Virus record (IMG/VR): IMGVR_UViG_3300021425_000027
Coordinates: 1-64,000 of that record
Direction: 5' to 3' (one strand)
From: a virus
Length of the DNA: 64,000 nucleotides
Part shown: one piece after another, positions 2,424 through 56,552 of the stretch
How the letters are laid out: the number at the start of each line of letters is the position of its first letter
Position numbering within the stretch: position 1 is the stretch's first letter
Notes under the pieces: generated by a model
Told to the model about the DNA's origin: nothing
The model's input: the letters and a program-made list of their open reading frames with translations, nothing else
The model's database searches: none
Program-made: the position numbers and the translations under genes

Positions 2424-3869
2424 ATGGATCTTATGACTTCCCTTAAGGTAAAAGGTACTACCACAGAGAATGGTATGACAACCAACACAACATCACTCGA
2501 TGCAAATGTTGACCTGTTCTTTAAAGCAGGTGCTATGCGAAATGCTAAAGCTGAAAATATCATTTCTTTTGTATCTAAAGCATGGGCAGAGGACCATACT
2601 ACATGTCTCCGTATTCTTTTCTGGGCTCGTGATGTTCGAGGTGGTGCAGGTGAACGTCGTTTCTTTAGGGTTGCAATGACTTACCTAATTGAAAAAGATC
2701 CTGTAGGATTTGCTGATATTATGCCTCTTATTCCTGAGTACGGTAGATGGGATGATCTTAAGGCTTTTGAAAATACCGCTGCTGAGGAATACGCATTGGC
2801 TACAATTACAACCGCCTTAGAGCGAGGTGATGCTCTTTGTGCAAAGTGGATGCCTCGTAAAGGTTCTTTTGCCGCAAAGATTCGAAGCTTCTTAAATCTT
2901 TCCCCTAAGCAATACCGTAAACTTTTAGTAGGTCTCACTAATGTAGTGGAAACACAAATGTGTGCTAAAGATTGGGATAAGATTAACTTTGAACATGTAC
3001 CATCTTTGGCTATGTCTCGTTACGGTATGGCCTTTACTAAGAATGCACAAGAACATTTTAGTAAATATGTGGAGAGTCTTAAGAAAGGCGAAGTCAAAGT
3101 TAACACTGGAGCAATTTACCCATATGATGTAATCAAGGCATTGTACAAAAATGATGCAGCCGAAGAACAGTGGAAGGCTCTTCCTAATTTCTTAGAAGGT
3201 AATACTGAAAAGATTCTTCCTTTGGTTGATGTGAGTGGGTCTATGGGCACCGGGTGTGGCGGTAATCTCACCTGTATGGATGTGGCAATTTCCTTAGGAT
3301 TGTATATTAGTGAGAGAAACGAAGGCCCATTTAAGGATCATTTTCTCACCTTCTCTAGTAACCCTAAACTTCAACACTTAACAGGAGATCTTAAGGACCG
3401 ATTCCGCCAAATGCAACGTGCTGATTGGGGAATGAGTACAAATCTAGAAAAAGCATATAAGCTTATCCTGGATCAGGCAGTTAAGCATAACATTTCACAA
3501 GAAGAAATGCCTACACAAATTCTTGTACTTTCAGATATGGAATTTGACCAGGCAACAGACCAAAGGGAAGAGGTATTTGGATGGGGAGAACAGAGTAGAG
3601 ATACATGGAATCCTACTGCTCAAGAAATGGTAGAGAAAATGTTTATTGATGCAGGATATAAGGTACCTAACATTGTTTATTGGAACATTCAATCCAGAAA
3701 TGGTAATGTACCGGTTAGATTTGACAAAGATGGTACTGCCCTTATTAGTGGCTTTTCACCTTCTATTATGACTTCATTGTTAGGTGGAGCTGAAATGAAT
3801 CCACAATCTATCATGATGGAGACAATCGGTAAAGAAAGATATTCTCGTATTAAGTATGAAACAATGTAA
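2424..3869 (+). CDS. Ro/DUF2828-like protein with von Willebrand A domain
   Basis: 481 residues from ATG 2424; a TTG two codons upstream is a less likely start. The N-terminal half is helical and carries the signature ILFWARDVRGGAGERRFFR, which I associate with the DUF2828 family. The C-terminal half is a von Willebrand A domain with a complete metal-ion-dependent adhesion site: DVSGS near residue 269, a downstream Thr in GMSTN, and Asp in LSDMEFD. A helical-repeat domain followed by a MIDAS-type vWA domain is also the layout of the Ro/TROVE RNA-binding proteins (Ro60, Rsr), which bind Y RNAs and misfolded RNAs. Whether this protein binds RNA is inference, but a candidate non-coding RNA lies immediately downstream. 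Confidence 0.8.
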   Translation: MDLMTSLKVKGTTTENGMTTNTTSLDANVDLFFKAGAMRNAKAENIISFVSKAWAEDHTTCLRILFWARDVRGGAGERRFFRVAMTYLIEKDPVGFADIMPLIPEYGRWDDLKAFENTAAEEYALATITTALERGDALCAKWMPRKGSFAAKIRSFLNLSPKQYRKLLVGLTNVVETQMCAKDWDKINFEHVPSLAMSRYGMAFTKNAQEHFSKYVESLKKGEVKVNTGAIYPYDVIKALYKNDAAEEQWKALPNFLEGNTEKILPLVDVSGSMGTGCGGNLTCMDVAISLGLYISERNEGPFKDHFLTFSSNPKLQHLTGDLKDRFRQMQRADWGMSTNLEKAYKLILDQAVKHNISQEEMPTQILVLSDMEFDQATDQREEVFGWGEQSRDTWNPTAQEMVEKMFIDAGYKVPNIVYWNIQSRNGNVPVRFDKDGTALISGFSPSIMTSLLGGAEMNPQSIMMETIGKERYSRIKYETM

Positions 3870-3880
3870 AGAGAATTGCA

Positions 3881-3888
3881 TATAAATA
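3881..3888 (+). promoter_or_regulatory. T4-type late promoter motif TATAAATA
   Basis: Perfect match to the T4 late -10 element, 11 bases after the vWA gene stop. With T4-like spacing the transcript would start at about 3894-3896, exactly at the first arm of a hairpin and with no gene before the terminator at 4052. Confidence 0.55.
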
Positions 3889-3894
3889 TTAAAT

Positions 3895-4052
3895 AAGGAT
3901 AAGTTCCGCAAACATTTTCTATCAAAACTCAGAAAAACCTTATCCTGGAAAATAATAAAGGATGCTTACAGCAAATTTTTACTACTATAAGCAAATAACA
4001 ATCAGACCAGCATCCTGATATACAGGTGGCTTCTTCGGAGGCCACCTTTTTT
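3895..4052 (+). ncRNA. Candidate structured non-coding RNA downstream of the Ro-like gene
   Basis: The 295 bases between the vWA gene and the sigma factor have no convincing gene. They hold two 8-bp inverted repeats: 3896-3903 with 3939-3946 (AGGATAAG/CTTATCCT) and 3959-3966 with 4009-4016 (AGGATGCT/AGCATCCT). Both stems start AGGAT and end ATCCT, so the first arm could alternatively pair with the last and close the whole RNA. A TATAAATA element sits just upstream and a strong TTCG-loop terminator just downstream, giving a predicted transcript of about 155 nt. An 18-codon ORF (3962-4018) inside the second stem is probably chance. A structured 3' untranslated region or leader is the main alternative. 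Confidence 0.5.
4025..4052 (+). terminator. Rho-independent terminator with TTCG tetraloop
   Basis: 9-bp stem (arms 4025-4033 and 4038-4046, one G-U pair), TTCG loop, then six T. Among the strongest terminators in the window. Confidence 0.92.
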
Positions 4053-4164: not shown

Positions 4165-4740
4165 ATGGATACAACATTCTACAAACAAATCGGTAAATAC
4201 AAAAACTCCGACGATCTCGTACTTGGCAACCTTCGATTGGTAGTCCACTTGGCTAAAAAATATCAAGGTATGGGATTGTCCTTAGATGATCTTATTAACG
4301 AAGGTACTATCGGCCTCTGTAAAGCGCGTGATAAGTGGAATCCTTCAAAATCAAATGGTGCAAAATTCTCTACTCATGCTACATGGTGGATCAAGGCTTC
4401 AATCCGAGAGGCACTTAATAATAAAAGCCGTACTATCCGCGTACCTGCTCACCGCACCCATTTAACTGAAGAAGCTCCAAAGGTAAGTCAATTGGATACT
4501 GCTTATCAAGGTTCATATAATCCTCAAGTAGAATCTGTGTATGATGAATCACACGTTAATCATACGATTGCTCATCTTTTGAAAAAGCTTAAGCCTAAGC
4601 AACAAGAAATTATCAAAATGAAATTTGGTATAGGCTATGATGAAGAAATGAAAACTTCTGAAATCGCCAAGGAACTCGGTTTAACTGTACAGGCAGTCAA
4701 CGGTAATATTCGCAACGCTCTTAAACTAATGAAAGGATGA
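4165..4740 (+). CDS. Sigma-70 family RNA polymerase sigma factor
   Basis: 191 residues from ATG 4165, preceded by an A-rich leader; the same frame is open further upstream but that stretch lies in promoter-like sequence. Region 2 is clear (NLRLVVHLAKKYQ, DLINEGTIGL, FSTHATWWIKASIREAL), followed by SRTIRVP and a region 4 helix-turn-helix at the C-terminus (LKPKQQEII, TSEIAKELGLTVQAV). Regions 1.1 and most of 3 are missing, so it is a minimal sigma factor. It resembles host housekeeping sigma factors more than T4 gp55, which is encoded separately at 37345. It presumably redirects host RNA polymerase to one phage gene class. Confidence 0.9.
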   Translation: MDTTFYKQIGKYKNSDDLVLGNLRLVVHLAKKYQGMGLSLDDLINEGTIGLCKARDKWNPSKSNGAKFSTHATWWIKASIREALNNKSRTIRVPAHRTHLTEEAPKVSQLDTAYQGSYNPQVESVYDESHVNHTIAHLLKKLKPKQQEIIKMKFGIGYDEEMKTSEIAKELGLTVQAVNGNIRNALKLMKG

Positions 4741-5250: not shown

Positions 5251-6087
5251 ATGCCAGAATTAGCAGAACTTAGATTGACTGCCGACTATGTCAATAAATC
5301 GGCAAACGGATTAAAATTTGTAGGGATTAAAAAGAACCCGGTTCATAAAGGTAAAGATATTGAAGTACCTTTTAAGTTCTTTAAGATCTCGGCAGAGAGT
5401 AGAGGAAAGGAACTTATGCTTACACTTTCCGATGATGATTCTAGTGAAAAGCGACATCTCTTAATGACTATGGGAATGAGCGGTCATTTTGCCCATACAA
5501 ATACAGGACGCGAGAAAAACCATTCTCATCTTATGTTTGTTGAAAAAGATGGAACTACATTATCATTTGTAGATGTCCGTAGATTCGGTAAGTGGAAATG
5601 GGTAGATGATTGGTCACCTAATAGAGGACCAGACCCCACTACTGAATATGATGCCTTTACTGATAATATTATTCATAACTTAGATAAAGCTGCATTCAAT
5701 CACCCTATACACACAGTACTGATGAACCAGTCTTACTTTAACGGTATAGGAAATTATCTTAGGGCTGAAATACTTTATCGTCTTCCGCACATTAATCCTT
5801 TTGAATCTGCGAGGAGTGTACTCACAAGAGAGCCGGATATTTTTATTCTCTGTAGGGATATTCCACTACAGGCATATGCATTAGGTGGTGGGCAACTAAA
5901 GGATTGGGAAAGTCCGTTTGGTACAGACCCTGAACCGCTACGAAAGTTTATGAGATGCTACGGTAATCCTAATATGTCAAAGAGAAAAGATAAGAATGGG
6001 AGAATGTTTTGGTATGATTCTAAATGGGATGAAGATGCTTTATGGGATCATTATAGCGGTCTTCCAAATCCTATTGCTTACATGTAA
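5251..6087 (+). CDS. nei: Fpg/Nei-family DNA glycosylase, NEIL1-like
   Basis: 278 residues. The protein starts MPELAE; Pro2 is the expected nucleophile and Glu3 the catalytic acid of the Fpg/Nei family after Met removal. Further landmarks are GMSGHF, DVRRFGKW and the helix-two-turn-helix NGIGNYLRAEILYR. The C-terminus has no four-cysteine zinc finger. Instead MRCYGNPNMS followed by GRMFWYD closely recalls the zincless finger of eukaryotic NEIL1. It would excise oxidised bases and cut the strand by beta/delta elimination. It starts four bases after the previous stop. Confidence 0.9.
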   Translation: MPELAELRLTADYVNKSANGLKFVGIKKNPVHKGKDIEVPFKFFKISAESRGKELMLTLSDDDSSEKRHLLMTMGMSGHFAHTNTGREKNHSHLMFVEKDGTTLSFVDVRRFGKWKWVDDWSPNRGPDPTTEYDAFTDNIIHNLDKAAFNHPIHTVLMNQSYFNGIGNYLRAEILYRLPHINPFESARSVLTREPDIFILCRDIPLQAYALGGGQLKDWESPFGTDPEPLRKFMRCYGNPNMSKRKDKNGRMFWYDSKWDEDALWDHYSGLPNPIAYM

Positions 6088-6105
6088 ACAAACACACATA
6101 TTAGC

Positions 6106-6113
6106 TATATAAA
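6106..6113 (+). promoter_or_regulatory. Late-type promoter motif TATATAAA
   Basis: Lies 15 bases before the dUTPase-like gene and continues into AAATAAA. Similar TATAAAAATAAA strings precede the helicase (about 29662) and clamp-loader (46639) genes, so this may belong to a different class from the structural-gene motifs. Confidence 0.35.
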
Positions 6114-6127
6114 AATAAAATCAAAAT

Positions 6128-6622
6128 ATGGCTAATATTGATAATCAATGTAAAGATCTCGAAGTAAGAGATTACTTTTCAGAGAATGGTTATGATCATT
6201 CTAAAAATTCACTAGAAGATCTTTATTCACTTCAAGCAAAAACGCAATCTATGTATTTCGAAAAGCAAGGCAGAAAGCCCTTTTCAGAATTTAATATAGG
6301 TGATGTTGTAGATTTTCTCATGGTAACTAATCATGCAATAATTGATGAATTACATGAGATGATGGATGCTGTTGGTGGGATTGAAGATGGGGAAGGTAAT
6401 GCTGCATGGAAACCTTGGAAATCTGCAAATTCTGAAATTAGAAAACAAAAATTATCAGATTTAACACCAGGTGATCTTAAAGAATTGAAAATGGAATGGA
6501 TTGATATAATGCATTTTGTATTTAATGCAGGTTTGGCCATTGGTGTTACTCCACAAGAATTCTATAACTATTATCTTTCAAAGAATGAAGAGAATTGGAA
6601 TAGACAAGAAAATAATTATTAA
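6128..6622 (+). CDS. Dimeric dUTPase-like / all-alpha NTP pyrophosphatase
   Basis: 164 residues, predicted all-helical. It begins with SLEDLYSLQ and has the acidic helix pair IIDELHEMMDA and LKMEWIDIMHFVFN, matching the ExxE...ExxD metal-binding pattern of the dimeric dUTPase/MazG-like superfamily. Such enzymes hydrolyse dUTP to dUMP, keeping uracil out of phage DNA and feeding dTMP synthesis. Placement beside polymerase and ribonucleotide reductase genes fits. The exact substrate cannot be told from sequence alone. Confidence 0.7.
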   Translation: MANIDNQCKDLEVRDYFSENGYDHSKNSLEDLYSLQAKTQSMYFEKQGRKPFSEFNIGDVVDFLMVTNHAIIDELHEMMDAVGGIEDGEGNAAWKPWKSANSEIRKQKLSDLTPGDLKELKMEWIDIMHFVFNAGLAIGVTPQEFYNYYLSKNEENWNRQENNY

Positions 6623-6645: not shown

Positions 6646-8055
6646 ATGCTATTAGATATCACACAAGAAGATCGCACTCTATGGGTTTCTTATTTTAATC
6701 TAGAAGGTAAAACTAGGTTTAAGACATATGACCTCACTGCCGATGATATGTTTAACTGGGAGGTTTGCGATGAAGGGGATACTAAAGCAGATCCTAAGAT
6801 GAAAAACTGGGATGGCCGACCGGTAAAGAAAGTTAAGTCTAGGTGGTTAAATAAGTATAGAATTATTGAGTACATGGATAACTTATCTAAGTCTGATAGG
6901 GAATTCATCTTTGGTTATCATTTTCCAAGAACATATTTTATTGATATTGAGGTTGAGGTAACTGATTCATTTCCTGAACCAAGTAAAGCACCAAATCCTA
7001 TAACTACAATATGTATTGTTACGCCTGAAAAACAGTGTATTGTTTTGGCAACTAAAGATTTAGATAATCAAACTCAATCAAAGATTCAGAATCAAATAGA
7101 TGAACATTTTAAAGATATTGATGATGACTTTTCATTCACCTTTAAGTGTTTTAAAACCGAATATGATATGATGTCTACATTTATGATGTCATTCGTTCAA
7201 AAATTTCCAATGATGACAGGTTGGAATTATGTAAAATTTGATTGGCAATACATTATTAACCGATGTAAAAAGTTAGGAATTGACATAGGATCTGCTTCAC
7301 CTTTAGGTAGAACTTTTGGCAGAGATGAATTCCCTTGTCATGTAGGAGTAATGGATTATTTAGATATTTATGCAAAATGGGATAGGACTGTAGATATTAA
7401 AGAAGACTTTAAGCTTGATACAGTAGGTGAAGCTGTTGTAGGAATTAAGAAAGTTAAGTATGAAGGTACTATTCAAGATATGTATGAAAAGGACTATCCT
7501 AAGTACGTGTTTTATAATGTAATTGATACTGCATTAGTTTATCTTATTCATCAGAAAATTAAGACTATGGATATTGCATTAACTATTGCACATATGACTC
7601 AGATTAGTATATTTAAAGCAGCATCACCTGTTGCAATTACCGAAGCTTTACTTGCAAGAGAATTTTTAACAAGAGATCTTGTAATGGCAAAAGACCCAAA
7701 GGCACCTCCAACAAAACGAGAACAGTTTGAAGGAGCCTTCGTAAAGGAACCTATTACTGGTATGCATAACGCAGTTGCTGCATTTGATTTTGCATCTCTT
7801 TATCCTTCAATTATGAGACAATTAAATGTTTCACCAGAAAGCTTTAAGAAAAAAGTATCACCTGAAAAAAGAGAAGCAGAAAAAGGAATTAATAATATTG
7901 TATCTGTTACCGGTGCTGTATATGACACAGAAAGGTCGATTCTAAAGGATGTTCTTAGCAGACTGTACTCACAAAGAAGAGAGTATAAGAAAAAGTCTTT
8001 TGAACTTCAACAAAAAGCATATGAAATGGAGAAGAGTCTAAAAGGATCTGAATAA
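6646..8055 (+). CDS. gp43A: DNA polymerase family B, N-terminal half (split gp43)
   Basis: 469 residues. The N-terminal domain and 3'-5' exonuclease come first, with FIDIEVEV near residue 98 as the Exo I DxE motif and NYVKFDWQYI as Exo II. Palm motif A, DFASLYPSIMRQ, is near residue 382. The protein then enters the fingers (YSQRREYKKKSFELQQKAYEM) and stops at 8055. Motifs B and C are absent here and lie at 24917-26035. T4 gp43 is one chain of about 900 residues; 469 plus 372 is close to that. Nothing at the end resembles an intein. The two halves presumably associate. Confidence 0.92.
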   Translation: MLLDITQEDRTLWVSYFNLEGKTRFKTYDLTADDMFNWEVCDEGDTKADPKMKNWDGRPVKKVKSRWLNKYRIIEYMDNLSKSDREFIFGYHFPRTYFIDIEVEVTDSFPEPSKAPNPITTICIVTPEKQCIVLATKDLDNQTQSKIQNQIDEHFKDIDDDFSFTFKCFKTEYDMMSTFMMSFVQKFPMMTGWNYVKFDWQYIINRCKKLGIDIGSASPLGRTFGRDEFPCHVGVMDYLDIYAKWDRTVDIKEDFKLDTVGEAVVGIKKVKYEGTIQDMYEKDYPKYVFYNVIDTALVYLIHQKIKTMDIALTIAHMTQISIFKAASPVAITEALLAREFLTRDLVMAKDPKAPPTKREQFEGAFVKEPITGMHNAVAAFDFASLYPSIMRQLNVSPESFKKKVSPEKREAEKGINNIVSVTGAVYDTERSILKDVLSRLYSQRREYKKKSFELQQKAYEMEKSLKGSE

Positions 8056-8125
8056 ATAAAAAACAATCAATTAAAGTAAATGTGCAGCTTAGGTTGCATA
8101 TTTAGTCAATAAAACAAAAACATAA

Positions 8126-11641: not shown

Positions 11642-12388
11642 ATGAGAGACTATACTTACATACTTGGTCCTTGTAGTATTGAAAACGAGGATAACTTTTT
11701 AGAAGTAGCCAAAGCATTAAATGCATCTATGGGAGATAAGAACTGGTATCTAAAAGGATCTTTTGATAAGGCAAACAGAACTTCTATACATTCTGATAGA
11801 GGTCCTGGTTTAGAAGAAGGTATGGAAATCATGAGAATCGTTAAGCATTATTATCCTAATATTAAAATCGTAACAGATATTCATGAACCTAGTCAGGCAC
11901 TACCTTTATCAGAAGTAGTGGATGTTATTCAAATTCCTGCCTTCTTATGTAGACAAACTGATCTTTTAGTTGAATGTGCAAAAAACTTTAATGTTATTAA
12001 TATTAAAAAGGGTCAATGGTTATCCGCTGAAGCAATGGAACATGCGGTTACTAAAATAAAAGAAGTGGATCCTAATTGCGAAGTATGGGTAACTGAAAGA
12101 GGGTCTCAATTTGGCTACGATAGATTAATTGTAGATTTTAGAGGTGTAGATGTAATGAAAGAATTTGCAGATAAAGTTATTTTAGACTGTACCCATTCAA
12201 CACAAATGGCAGGAGATGGTATAACCGGAGGAAGTCGTAAGTTAGCAAAACAATATGCTAAGGTTGCTAAGATTTTTGAATATGATGGGGTATTTATTGA
12301 AACTCACCCAGATCCTGATAATGCTATTTCAGACTCTGGTAGCCAAGTAGAATTAGATTGGTTAGTAGCTCAAATAAATAATATATGA
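11642..12388 (+). CDS. kdsA: 3-deoxy-D-manno-octulosonate 8-phosphate synthase
   Basis: 248 residues, slightly shorter than bacterial KdsA (about 280). Signature segments are GPCSIE at the N-terminus, LKGSFDKANRTS followed by GPGLEEG, FLCRQTDLL, NIKKGQW and THSTQ. The family condenses phosphoenolpyruvate with arabinose 5-phosphate to make Kdo-8-phosphate, the first committed Kdo step for lipopolysaccharide inner core. That points to a Gram-negative host. It overlaps the next gene by four bases and so opens the sugar operon. No obvious KdsB or KdsC partner is seen in this window. Confidence 0.92.
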   Translation: MRDYTYILGPCSIENEDNFLEVAKALNASMGDKNWYLKGSFDKANRTSIHSDRGPGLEEGMEIMRIVKHYYPNIKIVTDIHEPSQALPLSEVVDVIQIPAFLCRQTDLLVECAKNFNVINIKKGQWLSAEAMEHAVTKIKEVDPNCEVWVTERGSQFGYDRLIVDFRGVDVMKEFADKVILDCTHSTQMAGDGITGGSRKLAKQYAKVAKIFEYDGVFIETHPDPDNAISDSGSQVELDWLVAQINNI

Positions 12389-51903: not shown

Positions 51904-53859
51904 ATGGCGGTTAACGGAACTACGACAAATGCTAATGGCGATGCTATATTAATTAGCTTACAAGAACCTTATAAAAATGTAGTTGAAGTATTAGGATATA
52001 CTGATGTTACTAAAGGGGAAAATACTAGTGTTTATTTTAATAAGCAATTTAGGTGGGGAACGGATGGTGTTACATATTCAGATTATATAACTCTTAGTAA
52101 TGCGAATCTAGAAGCTTTATTGTTAGATCCAAATAAACCGTTTTGGGTACAGTATAGGTATGAACAAGTGGGCGATGGCACATTAGAATTTGAATCCATA
52201 GCATTAGAATTGGTAACAGATGGTGGGGTTATATGTAGAGTTCCACAAGTAGAGTGTGGGGCTGAAGGCTGCGTAGGGGTCCCAAATTTAGTTGTTGATT
52301 GTTGCGGAGAATCTTGGAATCCTTATGATTTGAGTAGAGCATCTGCTATGTATGATCAACTGTCAGCTGTCACTTCTAATCTTTTTGGTTTTTGTGTAGA
52401 TTACTTTAAGACAAAAGCTGACCAAAGAAGTAGAGATGTTATTCTTAAAGAGTATTCATTATTTAATGTAATTTCCGACGCAGAAGTAAAAATTCTTATT
52501 CCAGATAATGAATTACCTACTAGGGAGATTCAGTTTAATCCTATGATGATGGATTTTCCTGTTCAATTTGAAGTACATATTGTAAAATCTGCATTTGAGG
52601 CAGTCTTTGGTGTAGGCGCTAAACCAGAAATGAGAGACTATTTATATTTTAAACAGTATATGAATAGAATGTATGAAGTTGATGCTATAGCCGAAGCTGA
52701 TGACTTTCTTTATAGCGGTTCTTATTGGAGAGTAAGTCTTGTACCGTATCAGCAAAGAACTGCTGTTGGTTTTGACAATACTATAGAAGGTAAGAATGCT
52801 GAAGCTGATACCAAATCATTAGTTTCTGATTTAAGTAAATTTAAAGAAGAAAGAGAAGACGAATTTAGAGATGTTAGAAAACCTAATCAATATAATACAA
52901 TAGGAAGTCTATGTAATGATTATGTAAGAAGAGTATTAGATAAGAGATTAATTATTAAAGAAGAGAATGTTTATAATGAATGGACTATTATATCAAAATA
53001 CCATTACAAATTAAATTCTATGAAAACTAGAGAAGAGGCTATAGAATATAGATATGATGATGGGTGGTCTAAAGAAGAAGATAGGGCATTTACTTTTTGG
53101 GCAAGACCTCAGTATAAATCACCTATAGGAACTAATGTATTAATTCTTTCTATTGTAAATAAAGCTGGTAAAGTTCAATTTAATACTTCAAGTTTACCTG
53201 AGTTTGGTCAAGCCTTAAATGTAGGAGACTGGGTTTCCATAAGTGGTACGAAATCCTATAATGGGATATCAAAGATAATTGAAATAAATAATAATTCTAT
53301 TACTATAGATGAAGTATATGTTGATGACATAACAATAGGCACGCCTAAATTCAATAAAGAAACTAGTAATAACTTTATGGTTTATGAAAATTCTTTATTG
53401 CCTTCTACTCAGTTCGTGTCCTTGACATATACTCCAAATTGGTTTATTATGAAAGTTGGTGATGTGTATCACAAATGGAAATTAACCCAATCTCTAATTA
53501 AAGATAATTGGTATGCATTTGTTATCAATCTTAATGCTACATCAAAGCAGTTAAGTCTATATGTATATAGCACACCTGAAACATCAGGTTCAATTAATCC
53601 TAATTTTACATCTAAATTAACTAGAATATTTTATGAACCTAAAACCTACACGCCTATTACTATTGCAGATGATCTAAGTTGGAAGATTCTAGGTAGTCAG
53701 ACAGATTTAACTAATATTAGAATTTGGAAAAAGCCTATAGAAGAAGAATTGCAAAGTTTAATACTTAGTCAATATGTAGTTAAGGATACTCATTTAACTT
53801 TATTATTAGATAACGCATCTCCTGAACTGTTATTACAGACAGTTTCGGATGCCCGTTAA
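51904..53859 (+). CDS. Large virion structural protein with LamG-like C-terminal domain
   Basis: 651 residues. The N-terminal 200 residues have several cysteines (GGVICRVPQVECGAEGC, VDCCGESWNPYDLSRAS). The C-terminal 250 look like a concanavalin/LamG-type jelly roll (RAFTFWARPQYKSPIG, NNFMVYENSLL, DNWYAFVINLNATSKQLSLYVY, NIRIWKKPI). Such domains bind glycans. Its place between the holin and terminase genes under late control suggests a neck, whisker or baseplate-surface protein. I cannot match it to a T4 gene. Confidence 0.65.
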   Translation: MAVNGTTTNANGDAILISLQEPYKNVVEVLGYTDVTKGENTSVYFNKQFRWGTDGVTYSDYITLSNANLEALLLDPNKPFWVQYRYEQVGDGTLEFESIALELVTDGGVICRVPQVECGAEGCVGVPNLVVDCCGESWNPYDLSRASAMYDQLSAVTSNLFGFCVDYFKTKADQRSRDVILKEYSLFNVISDAEVKILIPDNELPTREIQFNPMMMDFPVQFEVHIVKSAFEAVFGVGAKPEMRDYLYFKQYMNRMYEVDAIAEADDFLYSGSYWRVSLVPYQQRTAVGFDNTIEGKNAEADTKSLVSDLSKFKEEREDEFRDVRKPNQYNTIGSLCNDYVRRVLDKRLIIKEENVYNEWTIISKYHYKLNSMKTREEAIEYRYDDGWSKEEDRAFTFWARPQYKSPIGTNVLILSIVNKAGKVQFNTSSLPEFGQALNVGDWVSISGTKSYNGISKIIEINNNSITIDEVYVDDITIGTPKFNKETSNNFMVYENSLLPSTQFVSLTYTPNWFIMKVGDVYHKWKLTQSLIKDNWYAFVINLNATSKQLSLYVYSTPETSGSINPNFTSKLTRIFYEPKTYTPITIADDLSWKILGSQTDLTNIRIWKKPIEEELQSLILSQYVVKDTHLTLLLDNASPELLLQTVSDAR

Positions 53860-54760: not shown

Positions 54761-56552
54761 TGCAGGATTTGAATTTACTATAGGTAAAGCCCAACAGTCT
54801 TTTTCATGGACTAGTGAAAAGGTAGAACAGCTTATGCTTGCTCTTGAGGAAGGTTATAAGCCGAAGTCAACTCCATTTTATGAAGGTAATCCTAATTTAA
54901 GAAAGGGGAATATTGTATATCAGTATACCTCACACGAATTAAAGGAAATCAAAAAATGCGCAACTGATATAGTATATTTTGCAAATACCTATTGTACTGT
55001 AATGACTGATCACGGTTTACAGACAATTGAATTAAGACCTTATCAGGAGGATATGTTAAGGCAATTTCAAGCAGAGAGATTTAATATTTGTTTGGCAAGT
55101 AGGCAGGTTGGTAAAACAATATGTTCTTCAATTTTTATTGCATGGTATGTTCTTTTTAACTTTGATAAGAATGCATTAGTACTTTCAAACAAAGGTGCAA
55201 CTACAAGAGAGATTATTGATAAAGGAAAAACTATCTTGGAGCATTTACCTTTCTTTCTAAAACCAGGCGTTCTTAAATGGGATGTATTTAATTCTAAATT
55301 TGATAATGGCTGTAGAATAATTGGTCAAACTACAACTAAGAAAGCGGCAATTGGTTTTACTATTCACTTATTGTTCATGGATGAGTTTGCTCACATACCC
55401 CAAAACTTTGTAGAAACCTTTTATGAAAACGTATATCCTACAGTATCTGCTTCTTCAAACTCAAAGGTTATTATTACTAGTACACCTAATGGGTTCAATA
55501 AGTTTTATGACATCTATTCGGCTGCCGAATCTGGTTTAAGTGAATATACCCCATTTAGGGTTGATTGGTGGGATGTCCCTGGTAGAGATGAAGCATGGAT
55601 GCGACAAGAAGTTGCTAATTTAGGAAGTGAGGAAGCATTTAATAGACAATATGGAAATCAATTTATTGCAAGCTCATCTCTTTTGCTAGGCGCGGACAGT
55701 CTTAAAAAATTAACCGAAAATCAAATTGAATTTGTTCACCGTGAAATGGTAGAATTTGAAGATGAAGACGTTAACTATGACGGTTTACTTTGGGATCCAA
55801 ACTTTAATTTAGAAGAGTGTGAAGAAGACACTAACTATTGGTGTTTTTCGGTTGATATTGCTGAAGGTACTGGTGGTGATTATTCTATTATTAATATCTT
55901 TAAAGTAGAAATCATGGATGAGAAGGATTGGTCAAAAGTATCATCACCTGGTAGTTTTATTGATTTTTATAGAATTAGACAAGTTGGTAGATTTAGAAGT
56001 AATGAGCATACTATTGAAGAATTTGCAAAGTCTCTTTACATTTTAGCATATGATATTTTCAACTCGGAAAATGTAAAACTAATCATAGAATGGAATTTAT
56101 TTGGTGGTGAATTAATAAAAAGGTTAGAAACCGTATTTCCACAAAGAAATGATTTTGATGAAGAGGCTGTTGTAAAATTTAAACACCGTATAGATGCAAG
56201 GACAAAACAATTTGGATTAAAAGTTAAAAAAGATAATAAGCCAATATTCTGTCAAAATTTTAAAAAGTACATAGCACAGAATAAGATAATAATAAAGGAT
56301 AAGAATACTGTATATGAAGCTTCAACTTTTGGTAAAATGCCAAACGGTTCATATGCAGGGCAGTTAGGACATGATGATTTAATAATGACATGTATTAATA
56401 GTTCTGAATTCTTTTTTACATTAGATTTTTCTGATTTTGCTGAAGAGATTCATGATGAGATAGATCAAATTATTCAAGATAAGATTGATGTTATCTTAGA
56501 GCGAGACGCAAAGGGAGGACAACTGAATTTTGATATCTACGACCTGGTATAA
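54735..56552 (+). CDS. gp17: Terminase large subunit (gp17-like)
   Basis: 605 residues (T4 gp17 610). Walker A-like ASRQVGKT near residue 122, Walker B LLFMDEFAHI near 213, coupling motif STPNG, and the nuclease domain with SVDIAEGTGGDYS, EWNLFGG and GHDDLIM. It cuts concatemers and pumps DNA into the prohead through the portal. Starts inside the end of the GroES-like gene. Confidence 0.95.
   Translation: MPQKPQAPSAGFEFTIGKAQQSFSWTSEKVEQLMLALEEGYKPKSTPFYEGNPNLRKGNIVYQYTSHELKEIKKCATDIVYFANTYCTVMTDHGLQTIELRPYQEDMLRQFQAERFNICLASRQVGKTICSSIFIAWYVLFNFDKNALVLSNKGATTREIIDKGKTILEHLPFFLKPGVLKWDVFNSKFDNGCRIIGQTTTKKAAIGFTIHLLFMDEFAHIPQNFVETFYENVYPTVSASSNSKVIITSTPNGFNKFYDIYSAAESGLSEYTPFRVDWWDVPGRDEAWMRQEVANLGSEEAFNRQYGNQFIASSSLLLGADSLKKLTENQIEFVHREMVEFEDEDVNYDGLLWDPNFNLEECEEDTNYWCFSVDIAEGTGGDYSIINIFKVEIMDEKDWSKVSSPGSFIDFYRIRQVGRFRSNEHTIEEFAKSLYILAYDIFNSENVKLIIEWNLFGGELIKRLETVFPQRNDFDEEAVVKFKHRIDARTKQFGLKVKKDNKPIFCQNFKKYIAQNKIIIKDKNTVYEASTFGKMPNGSYAGQLGHDDLIMTCINSSEFFFTLDFSDFAEEIHDEIDQIIQDKIDVILERDAKGGQLNFDIYDLV

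Follow-up and report, generated by a model that had tools for sequence, protein, structure and literature searches.

The window analyzed here is a 64-kb stretch out of a 69,362-bp IMG/VR virus record (IMGVR_UViG_3300021425_000027). Near its start, a 295-bp gap separates a DUF2828/vWA gene (2424-3869), which codes for a Ro-like protein, from a sigma-factor gene (4165-4740). An earlier annotation made from the letters alone (hereafter the sequence-only reading) had placed in this gap a gene-free structured RNA with a perfect late element at 3881-3888, two 8-bp stems, and a TTCG-loop terminator. The gap indeed contains no convincing gene, the late element is an exact TATAAATA, and both stems and the terminator are present, the latter spanning 4024-4052. 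From comparison with relatives, we consider it reasonably probable that 3894-4052 is a small non-coding RNA gene made of two units, arranged in tandem, that belong to an undescribed and very widespread family of phage RNAs. The locus contains the following features:

2424-3869, plus strand: gene for the Ro60-like protein (DUF2828 and DUF7788/vWA), the presumed partner, assigned by Pfam, PHROG 850, and AlphaFold2/Foldseek.
3881-3888, plus strand: candidate late-promoter element, an exact match with spacing conserved in the related loci L082, L094, and L090.
3894-3949, plus strand: RNA unit 1 (covariance model R2, E 4e-7; covariance model R1, 42.3 bits), with compensatory changes in L092.
3957-4019, plus strand: RNA unit 2 (R2, E 5.7e-7; R1, 52.5 bits; Rfam RF01414, 23.4 bits, sub-threshold).
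4024-4052, plus strand: intrinsic terminator (10-bp stem, TTCG loop, T run), the presumed 3′ end of the transcript.

Unit 1 begins 25 bp past the end of the vWA gene. Its stem pairs AGGATAAG (3896-3903) with CTTATCCT (3939-3946), and that of unit 2 pairs AGGATGCT (3959-3966) with AGCATCCT (4009-4016). The 5′ strand is followed by a motif, TTCCGCAAA (3904-3912) in unit 1 and TTACAGCAAA (3966-3975) in unit 2. The part enclosed by the stem, here called the cargo, is AU-rich in both units, and that of unit 1 holds an inner TTTTCT/AGAAAA hairpin. The stem and loop of the terminator occupy 4024-4047, with the T run reaching 4052. Positions 3893-4052 fold at -35.6 kcal/mol (z -3.74), and none of 200 dinucleotide shuffles was as good. 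As a putative promoter, TATAAATA would put the start of the RNA at about 3893-3896, giving a predicted transcript of about 155 nt that presumably ends at the terminator. Within the window, each motif on its own is about as frequent as chance predicts: TATAAATA is unenriched (10 observed vs. 15.5 expected), and AGGAT...ATCCT pairs number 5 against 2.8 expected. These counts would suit hairpins formed by chance in AT-rich sequence between genes, or else a mobile repeat, so the comparison with relatives has to carry the case.

The relatives exposed a conserved motif that the sequence-only reading had overlooked. Each unit consists of a 6-10-bp terminal stem, the motif U(U/A)(A/C)C.GCAA on the 5′ side at the stem foot, and a variable cargo, and the 3′ strand usually ends in CCTG. 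Many units of this form turned up next to vWA genes in an initial scan with a regular expression. The model R1, built from 33 units, gave 172 and 78 matches over 91 and 79 loci, all but one weak match being on the vWA strand. Because R1 held the window's own copies, the model R2 was built from 57 units with the window's clade excluded; over the whole record, the two units of the window rank first and second (E about 5e-7). R2 misses long-cargo units, and the pattern scan and reading by eye recover some units that it calls negative. Two weak minus-strand matches were rejected as further copies in the window, since 53583-53642 lacks the motif and the stem of 56402-56454 is poor.

Compensating changes in the stems, which the sequence-only reading had proposed to look for, were found in several ways. 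Stem pairs changing on both sides numbered 6 of 9 (seed A2) and 4 of 6 (seed A3), far above shuffled or slid partners, in figures biased by seeds that were picked partly for pairing. For this reason, a selection-free pairing test was run, and it was relied on together with the stems of mycobacteriophage units, which differ among genera by compensating changes. On the vWA strand, 192 of 578 motifs had, downstream, the reverse complement of the 6 nt in front of them, compared with 18.2 by chance (maximum 30 with swapped partners); the same test on the opposite strand gave 20 of 493 motifs, compared with 15.5.

The units are also tied to the Ro-like gene, as the sequence-only reading had anticipated. 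Where loci had been retrieved through vWA similarity, 66 of 77 and 61 of 79 have a unit no more than 3 kb from the gene. A set of 31 whole records has 102 units, every one of them on the vWA strand, and 40 of these are within 2 kb of the vWA gene (5 expected). In the reverse direction, a search with the RNA pattern alone across 2.9 million viral contigs yielded 80 loci, of which 33 contain a vWA gene in the fetched stretch, on the same strand in 33 of 33. A further 18 of the other 47 have a vWA gene elsewhere on the record, and most of the remaining records are short fragments, as IMG/VR contigs mostly are. Consistent with this, four whole records of close sigma-factor relatives that lack the vWA gene (G069-G072) contain no unit. 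The RNA pattern gave only 9 scattered matches in 84,980 bacterial and archaeal genomes (257 Gb), and this near-absence suggests that the family is viral. Taken together, the match to the independent model R2, the complete strand bias, the covariation, the restriction of the motif to one strand, and the rarity of the pattern in cellular genomes contradict chance hairpins or a mobile repeat, which we regard as very improbable.

Close relatives of the window locus retain this arrangement. In L082, L094, and L092, whose vWA proteins are 74-99% identical, the order of vWA gene, two-unit RNA, terminator, and sigma factor is preserved. L092 shows compensated changes in the two stems and in the terminator (GGGATAAT/ATTATCCC, AGGATCGT/ACGATCCT, and GGCGGC/GCCGCC), and the terminator stem is retained with a different sequence in L092, L094, and L090. 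L089-L091 (vWA 71% identical) have the same gene order, and their unit 2 (L090:2559-2811) has in its cargo a long insertion of about 170 nt with no recognized tRNA (transfer RNA) order; a group I intron was considered for this insertion, and Rfam gave no match. Both the vWA gene and the RNA are absent from L083-L088, whose sigma factor is 83-85% identical. TATAAATA stands ahead of unit 1 at the same spacing in L082, L094, and L090. TATAAATA is a candidate for the -10 element of the T4-like late promoter proposed by the sequence-only reading: the site is exact and its spacing is kept in the clade, its conservation is almost confined to this clade (exact TATAAATA precedes 5 of 186 units elsewhere), and it is unenriched in the window.

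The neighboring protein matched DUF7788 (4.7e-53) and DUF2828 (3e-33) in Pfam, with VWA_2 below the cut-off and no hit to the Pfam TROVE family, and it matched PHROG 850, an RNA-binding protein family, at 2e-152. An AlphaFold2 model from 30 relatives had a predicted local distance difference test score of 80.6 and a predicted template modeling (TM) score of 0.80. In Foldseek, all 12 PDB matches at E ≤ 0.001 were Ro/TROVE proteins, the top one being the TROVE domain 9kop (E 4.8e-8, TM 0.53), followed by Ro60 of the Thermus phage phiLo (9l5y), the Ro autoantigen (1yvr), and Deinococcus Rsr. A profile sequence search matched TROVE chains weakly (E 0.0019). By its model, then, the vWA protein is of the Ro60/TROVE fold, a HEAT-like ring with a vWA domain. 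The suggestion of the sequence-only reading that the phage carries an RNA partner for this protein is partly supported, by the genetic tie, the stem covariation, and the predicted fold.

Hundreds of sequenced phages carry a Ro-like protein, including Felix O1-like coliphages, KVP40, Listeria pecentumviruses, Campylobacter fletcherviruses, and L-cluster mycobacteriophages, and the protein is matched by 682 INPHARED records. Of the 18 named phages with DUF2828, 13 have R2 units at E < 0.01: Citrobacter Ci1, Cronobacter S13, Vibrio KVP40, BUCT194, PhiImVa-1, and D479, Aeromonas LAh_8 and Ahp1, Stenotrophomonas DLP_6, Campylobacter F336, Listeria AG20, Mycobacterium DuncansLeg, and Erwinia pEa_SNUABM_44. 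Reading of the sequence adds the E. coli Felixounavirus ekra and Enterococcus ZJGS2, as well as candidates in some other R2-negative phages. Aeromonas LAh_8 has 8 matches in a whole-record search and 9 in the fetched locus at a looser cut-off. Three mycobacteriophage genera have three tandem units and a terminator in a 360-390-nt gap behind the gene for a 'Ro-like RNA binding protein'. The DuncansLeg unit is conserved in 24 records, and the Campylobacter pair in 40.

These phages also bear on the possibility that the element acts in cis, as a 3′-untranslated-region or leader structure governing the expression or stability of the vWA mRNA or the next one. Such a role would explain the adjacency and the shared strand, and the window element does lie directly behind the vWA gene and end in a terminator. 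However, units precede or follow the vWA gene, sit within tRNA arrays, or lie tens of kb away in one genome; unit 1 in the window's clade has ahead of it a conserved site resembling a promoter; and the tRNA-like cargo described below would be unexpected of a cis element. A cis-acting element is thus improbable.

The cargo was surveyed in 188 distinct units, 143 with short and 45 with long cargos. Hairpins of the anticodon-arm type (7-nt loop, U33, purine 37) are present in 52 of the 143 short cargos, compared with 6.6 expected (maximum 13 in 100 shuffles), and their loops are typical anticodon loops such as CUUGUAA, CUCAUAA, CUUUUAA, CUUCUAA, CUGCUAA, CUUAUAA, and CUGAUAA. A T arm is present in 27 of the 45 long cargos (0.2 expected). 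A strict test for circular permutation, comprising a T arm, a 3′ acceptor strand, a 3-17-nt linker, and a fully paired 5′ acceptor strand, identified permuted tRNAs in 10 of 26 T-arm units, compared with 0.28 expected for pairing alone; it replaced a first, loose test with a background of 6. In strictly permuted units, the 5′ acceptor strand is usually followed by a recognizable D arm, and L048:2374-2493 folds into an outer stem with anticodon, T, acceptor, and D arms. A short loop closes the acceptor stem of the permuted tRNAs, which are located at this locus and at L011:2339-2455, L018:1814-1929, L037:911-1027, L005:2179-2312, L028:1218-1337, L076:2705-2828, L075:6209-6301, L019:2785-2878, and L273:9259-9376. 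Units of mycobacteriophages, Enterococcus ZJGS2, and E. coli phage ekra contain permuted tRNAs as well. The permutation point varies among the anticodon loop, base 26, and the variable loop. The sequence-only reading had seen no tRNA-like T-loop, which is right for the window, yet many relatives bear tRNA-like cargo.

The inverse topology was also found. In phages S13, Ci1, BUCT194, and LAh_8, tRNAs of normal order carry a hairpin with the motif in the anticodon region, and the S13 and Ci1 annotations call some of them over-long or pseudo tRNAs. Such cases lie at L276:7826-7946 and 7956-8068 (Cronobacter S13), L274:7807-7921 (Ci1), L277 about 5390-5480, L282:2913-3029, and L231 about 6080-6180. 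The occurrence of both topologies suggests that the stem and motif act as a module attached to a tRNA at or close to its anticodon arm, regardless of which end is closed. It would also fit unusual tRNA genes, in which the stem and motif are an intron-like insert at the anticodon loop that is excised to mature permuted or insert-bearing tRNAs, as excision from either form yields the same molecule. Most units, however, have no tRNA or an anticodon arm only, the permutation points differ, and the window has no tRNA, so that we consider this explanation unlikely.

The units are probably the viral counterpart of cellular Ro/Y-RNA particles. It is quite likely that the Ro-like protein binds the stem and motif, which would form a handle gripped in the way Ro60 grips a Y RNA stem. 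More tentatively, the cargo may be displayed as a mimic of a tRNA or anticodon arm. Such a mimic could occupy host enzymes that recognize tRNA, most plausibly the anticodon nucleases of anti-phage defense; alternatively, it could tether these enzymes to the Ro particle. Because the cargo is tRNA-like and tRNA is a main target of bacterial anti-phage nucleases, the units may be counter-defense RNAs. The window phage has the scaffold and no recognizable tRNA mimic in its sequenced part. With AU-rich cargos and no tRNA found in the window by ARAGORN, its RNA may have a scaffold role only or carry a type of cargo that is not recognized here.

Several points weigh against this interpretation. The window cargos are plain AU-rich loops with no 7-nt U33-type hairpin and no tRNA-like module, so the mimic step rests on the relatives. 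No known Y RNA model matches the units, so the binding mode would have to differ from that of known Y RNAs, and the stem-foot motif is also unlike their Ro-binding site. Among 34 records positive for DUF7788, three (G059, G078, and G079) gave no unit at E ≤ 0.001. Conversely, G037 (166,302 bp; L241) and G046 (140,615 bp; L254) have units and no detected DUF2828 or DUF7788, and are either fragments or hold a divergent partner. In addition, the model E-values are rough owing to a short calibration, and the relatives are phylogenetically non-independent.

A Y-RNA-like platform for RNA repair or quality control is a less likely reading than a decoy or tether. Here the RNA would serve as a gate or tether, damaged tRNA would be handled with a phage ligase or kinase, and the cargo would recruit tRNA-processing enzymes. 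In Deinococcus, PNPase is tethered by Rsr and Y RNA to degrade RNA (PMC7790460), jumbo-phage ROT/TROVE proteins have been classed among RNA-repair systems (PMC7824862), and the Ro-like protein, RNA ligase, and kinase of phage LeBron have been jointly listed as toxic RNA-metabolism genes (PMC13148394). RNA ligase genes are located a few kb from the vWA gene and units in Listeria AG20 (L279, 11544-12485) and Aeromonas LAh_8 (L282, 11036-11959), which is compatible with a context of RNA repair. However, a partial survey of ten proteins in the window's neighborhood showed no ligase or kinase, and an anticodon arm alone suffices as cargo in many units, which is more what one would expect of a decoy or bait than of a substrate for repair.

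Other features were observed in these sequences. A phage contig with units also has a minus-strand match to the Rfam small RNA Atu_At1 (L053:6045-6151; 70.8 bits, above the gathering score). Two phage contigs have transfer-messenger RNA genes with the tag EEVELAVAA (L156:6735-7224 and L175:6749-7238) about 2 kb from the vWA gene and units. In the window, 5251-6087 codes for a formamidopyrimidine-DNA glycosylase-like protein, and 11642-12388 codes for an enzyme of the DAHP-synthetase-I family.

To our knowledge, the phage Ro-like protein has no known partner or role, and a linked RNA family renders its role testable. No description of this phage RNA was found in PubMed Central among open-licence papers, and none of an RNA partner of phage Ro60 proteins in searchable papers. 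At gathering thresholds, no Rfam model, including those of Y RNAs, matched the window or its near relatives. The best sub-threshold match of unit 2 was RF01414 (Dicty_Class_I_RNA), at 23.4 bits against a gathering score of 41.5, and six units in four other loci scored 28-31 bits with this model (best 30.7), again below 41.5.

We know of no mechanism for the Class I RNAs of Dictyostelium, which are marked by a DUSE promoter, a eukaryotic element. The phage units share with them a short end-joining stem, an 11-nt motif on the 5′ side (CCUUACAGCAA), a variable remainder, a length of about 60 nt, a low GC content, and a 3′ CUG(U). Class I RNAs have been published (PMC7919456) as having an end-joining stem, an 11-nt motif with invariant T3, C6, C9, A10, and A11, an AAG start, and a CUGU end, and as occurring in dictyostelids only. 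Of the 11 bases in the motif, unit 2 matches 10, among them all five invariant ones, and unit 1 has four of the five. Unlike Class I RNAs, the units occur in phages and not amoebae, are linked to a Ro-like gene, and often carry tRNA-like cargo; they are not filed as Class I RNAs because they score below the gathering threshold. The likeness in architecture and invariant bases provides a concrete hypothesis for the amoeba RNAs too. It is a rather unlikely, far-reaching possibility that a virus-wide class of Ro-bound RNAs, sharing descent with the Class I RNAs, presents interchangeable tRNA imitations, namely anticodon arms and circularly permuted tRNAs whose acceptor stems are closed, against tRNA-destroying host enzymes; if such common descent were true, the Class I RNAs would also be ligands of a Ro-type protein.

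With bacterial Y RNAs of the YrlA type, which act with Rsr/Ro60, the units share the position of a non-coding RNA beside a Ro60-like gene and, in many members, a tRNA-mimicking module. Competitive inhibition of an anticodon nuclease has been proposed for the tRNA-like part of YrlA (PMC7790460). The phage units differ in matching no Rfam Y RNA model, in having several copies per locus and freely exchanged cargo, and in containing permuted tRNAs. Given the tRNA-like cargo of many relatives, the family resembles bacterial Y RNAs in plan more than the sequence-only reading had supposed. The window protein shares its fold and family with known phage Ro60 proteins, namely phiLo Ro60, the mycobacteriophage 'Ro-like RNA binding protein', and PHROG 850.

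Circularly permuted tRNA genes are known from red algae and some archaea. Those described here may be the first noted in phages, no report having been found among open-licence papers. As in the algal and archaeal genes, the 3′ half precedes the 5′ half, and a short linker joins the acceptor strands; unlike those genes, the phage versions are enclosed in a motif-bearing stem and have several permutation points.
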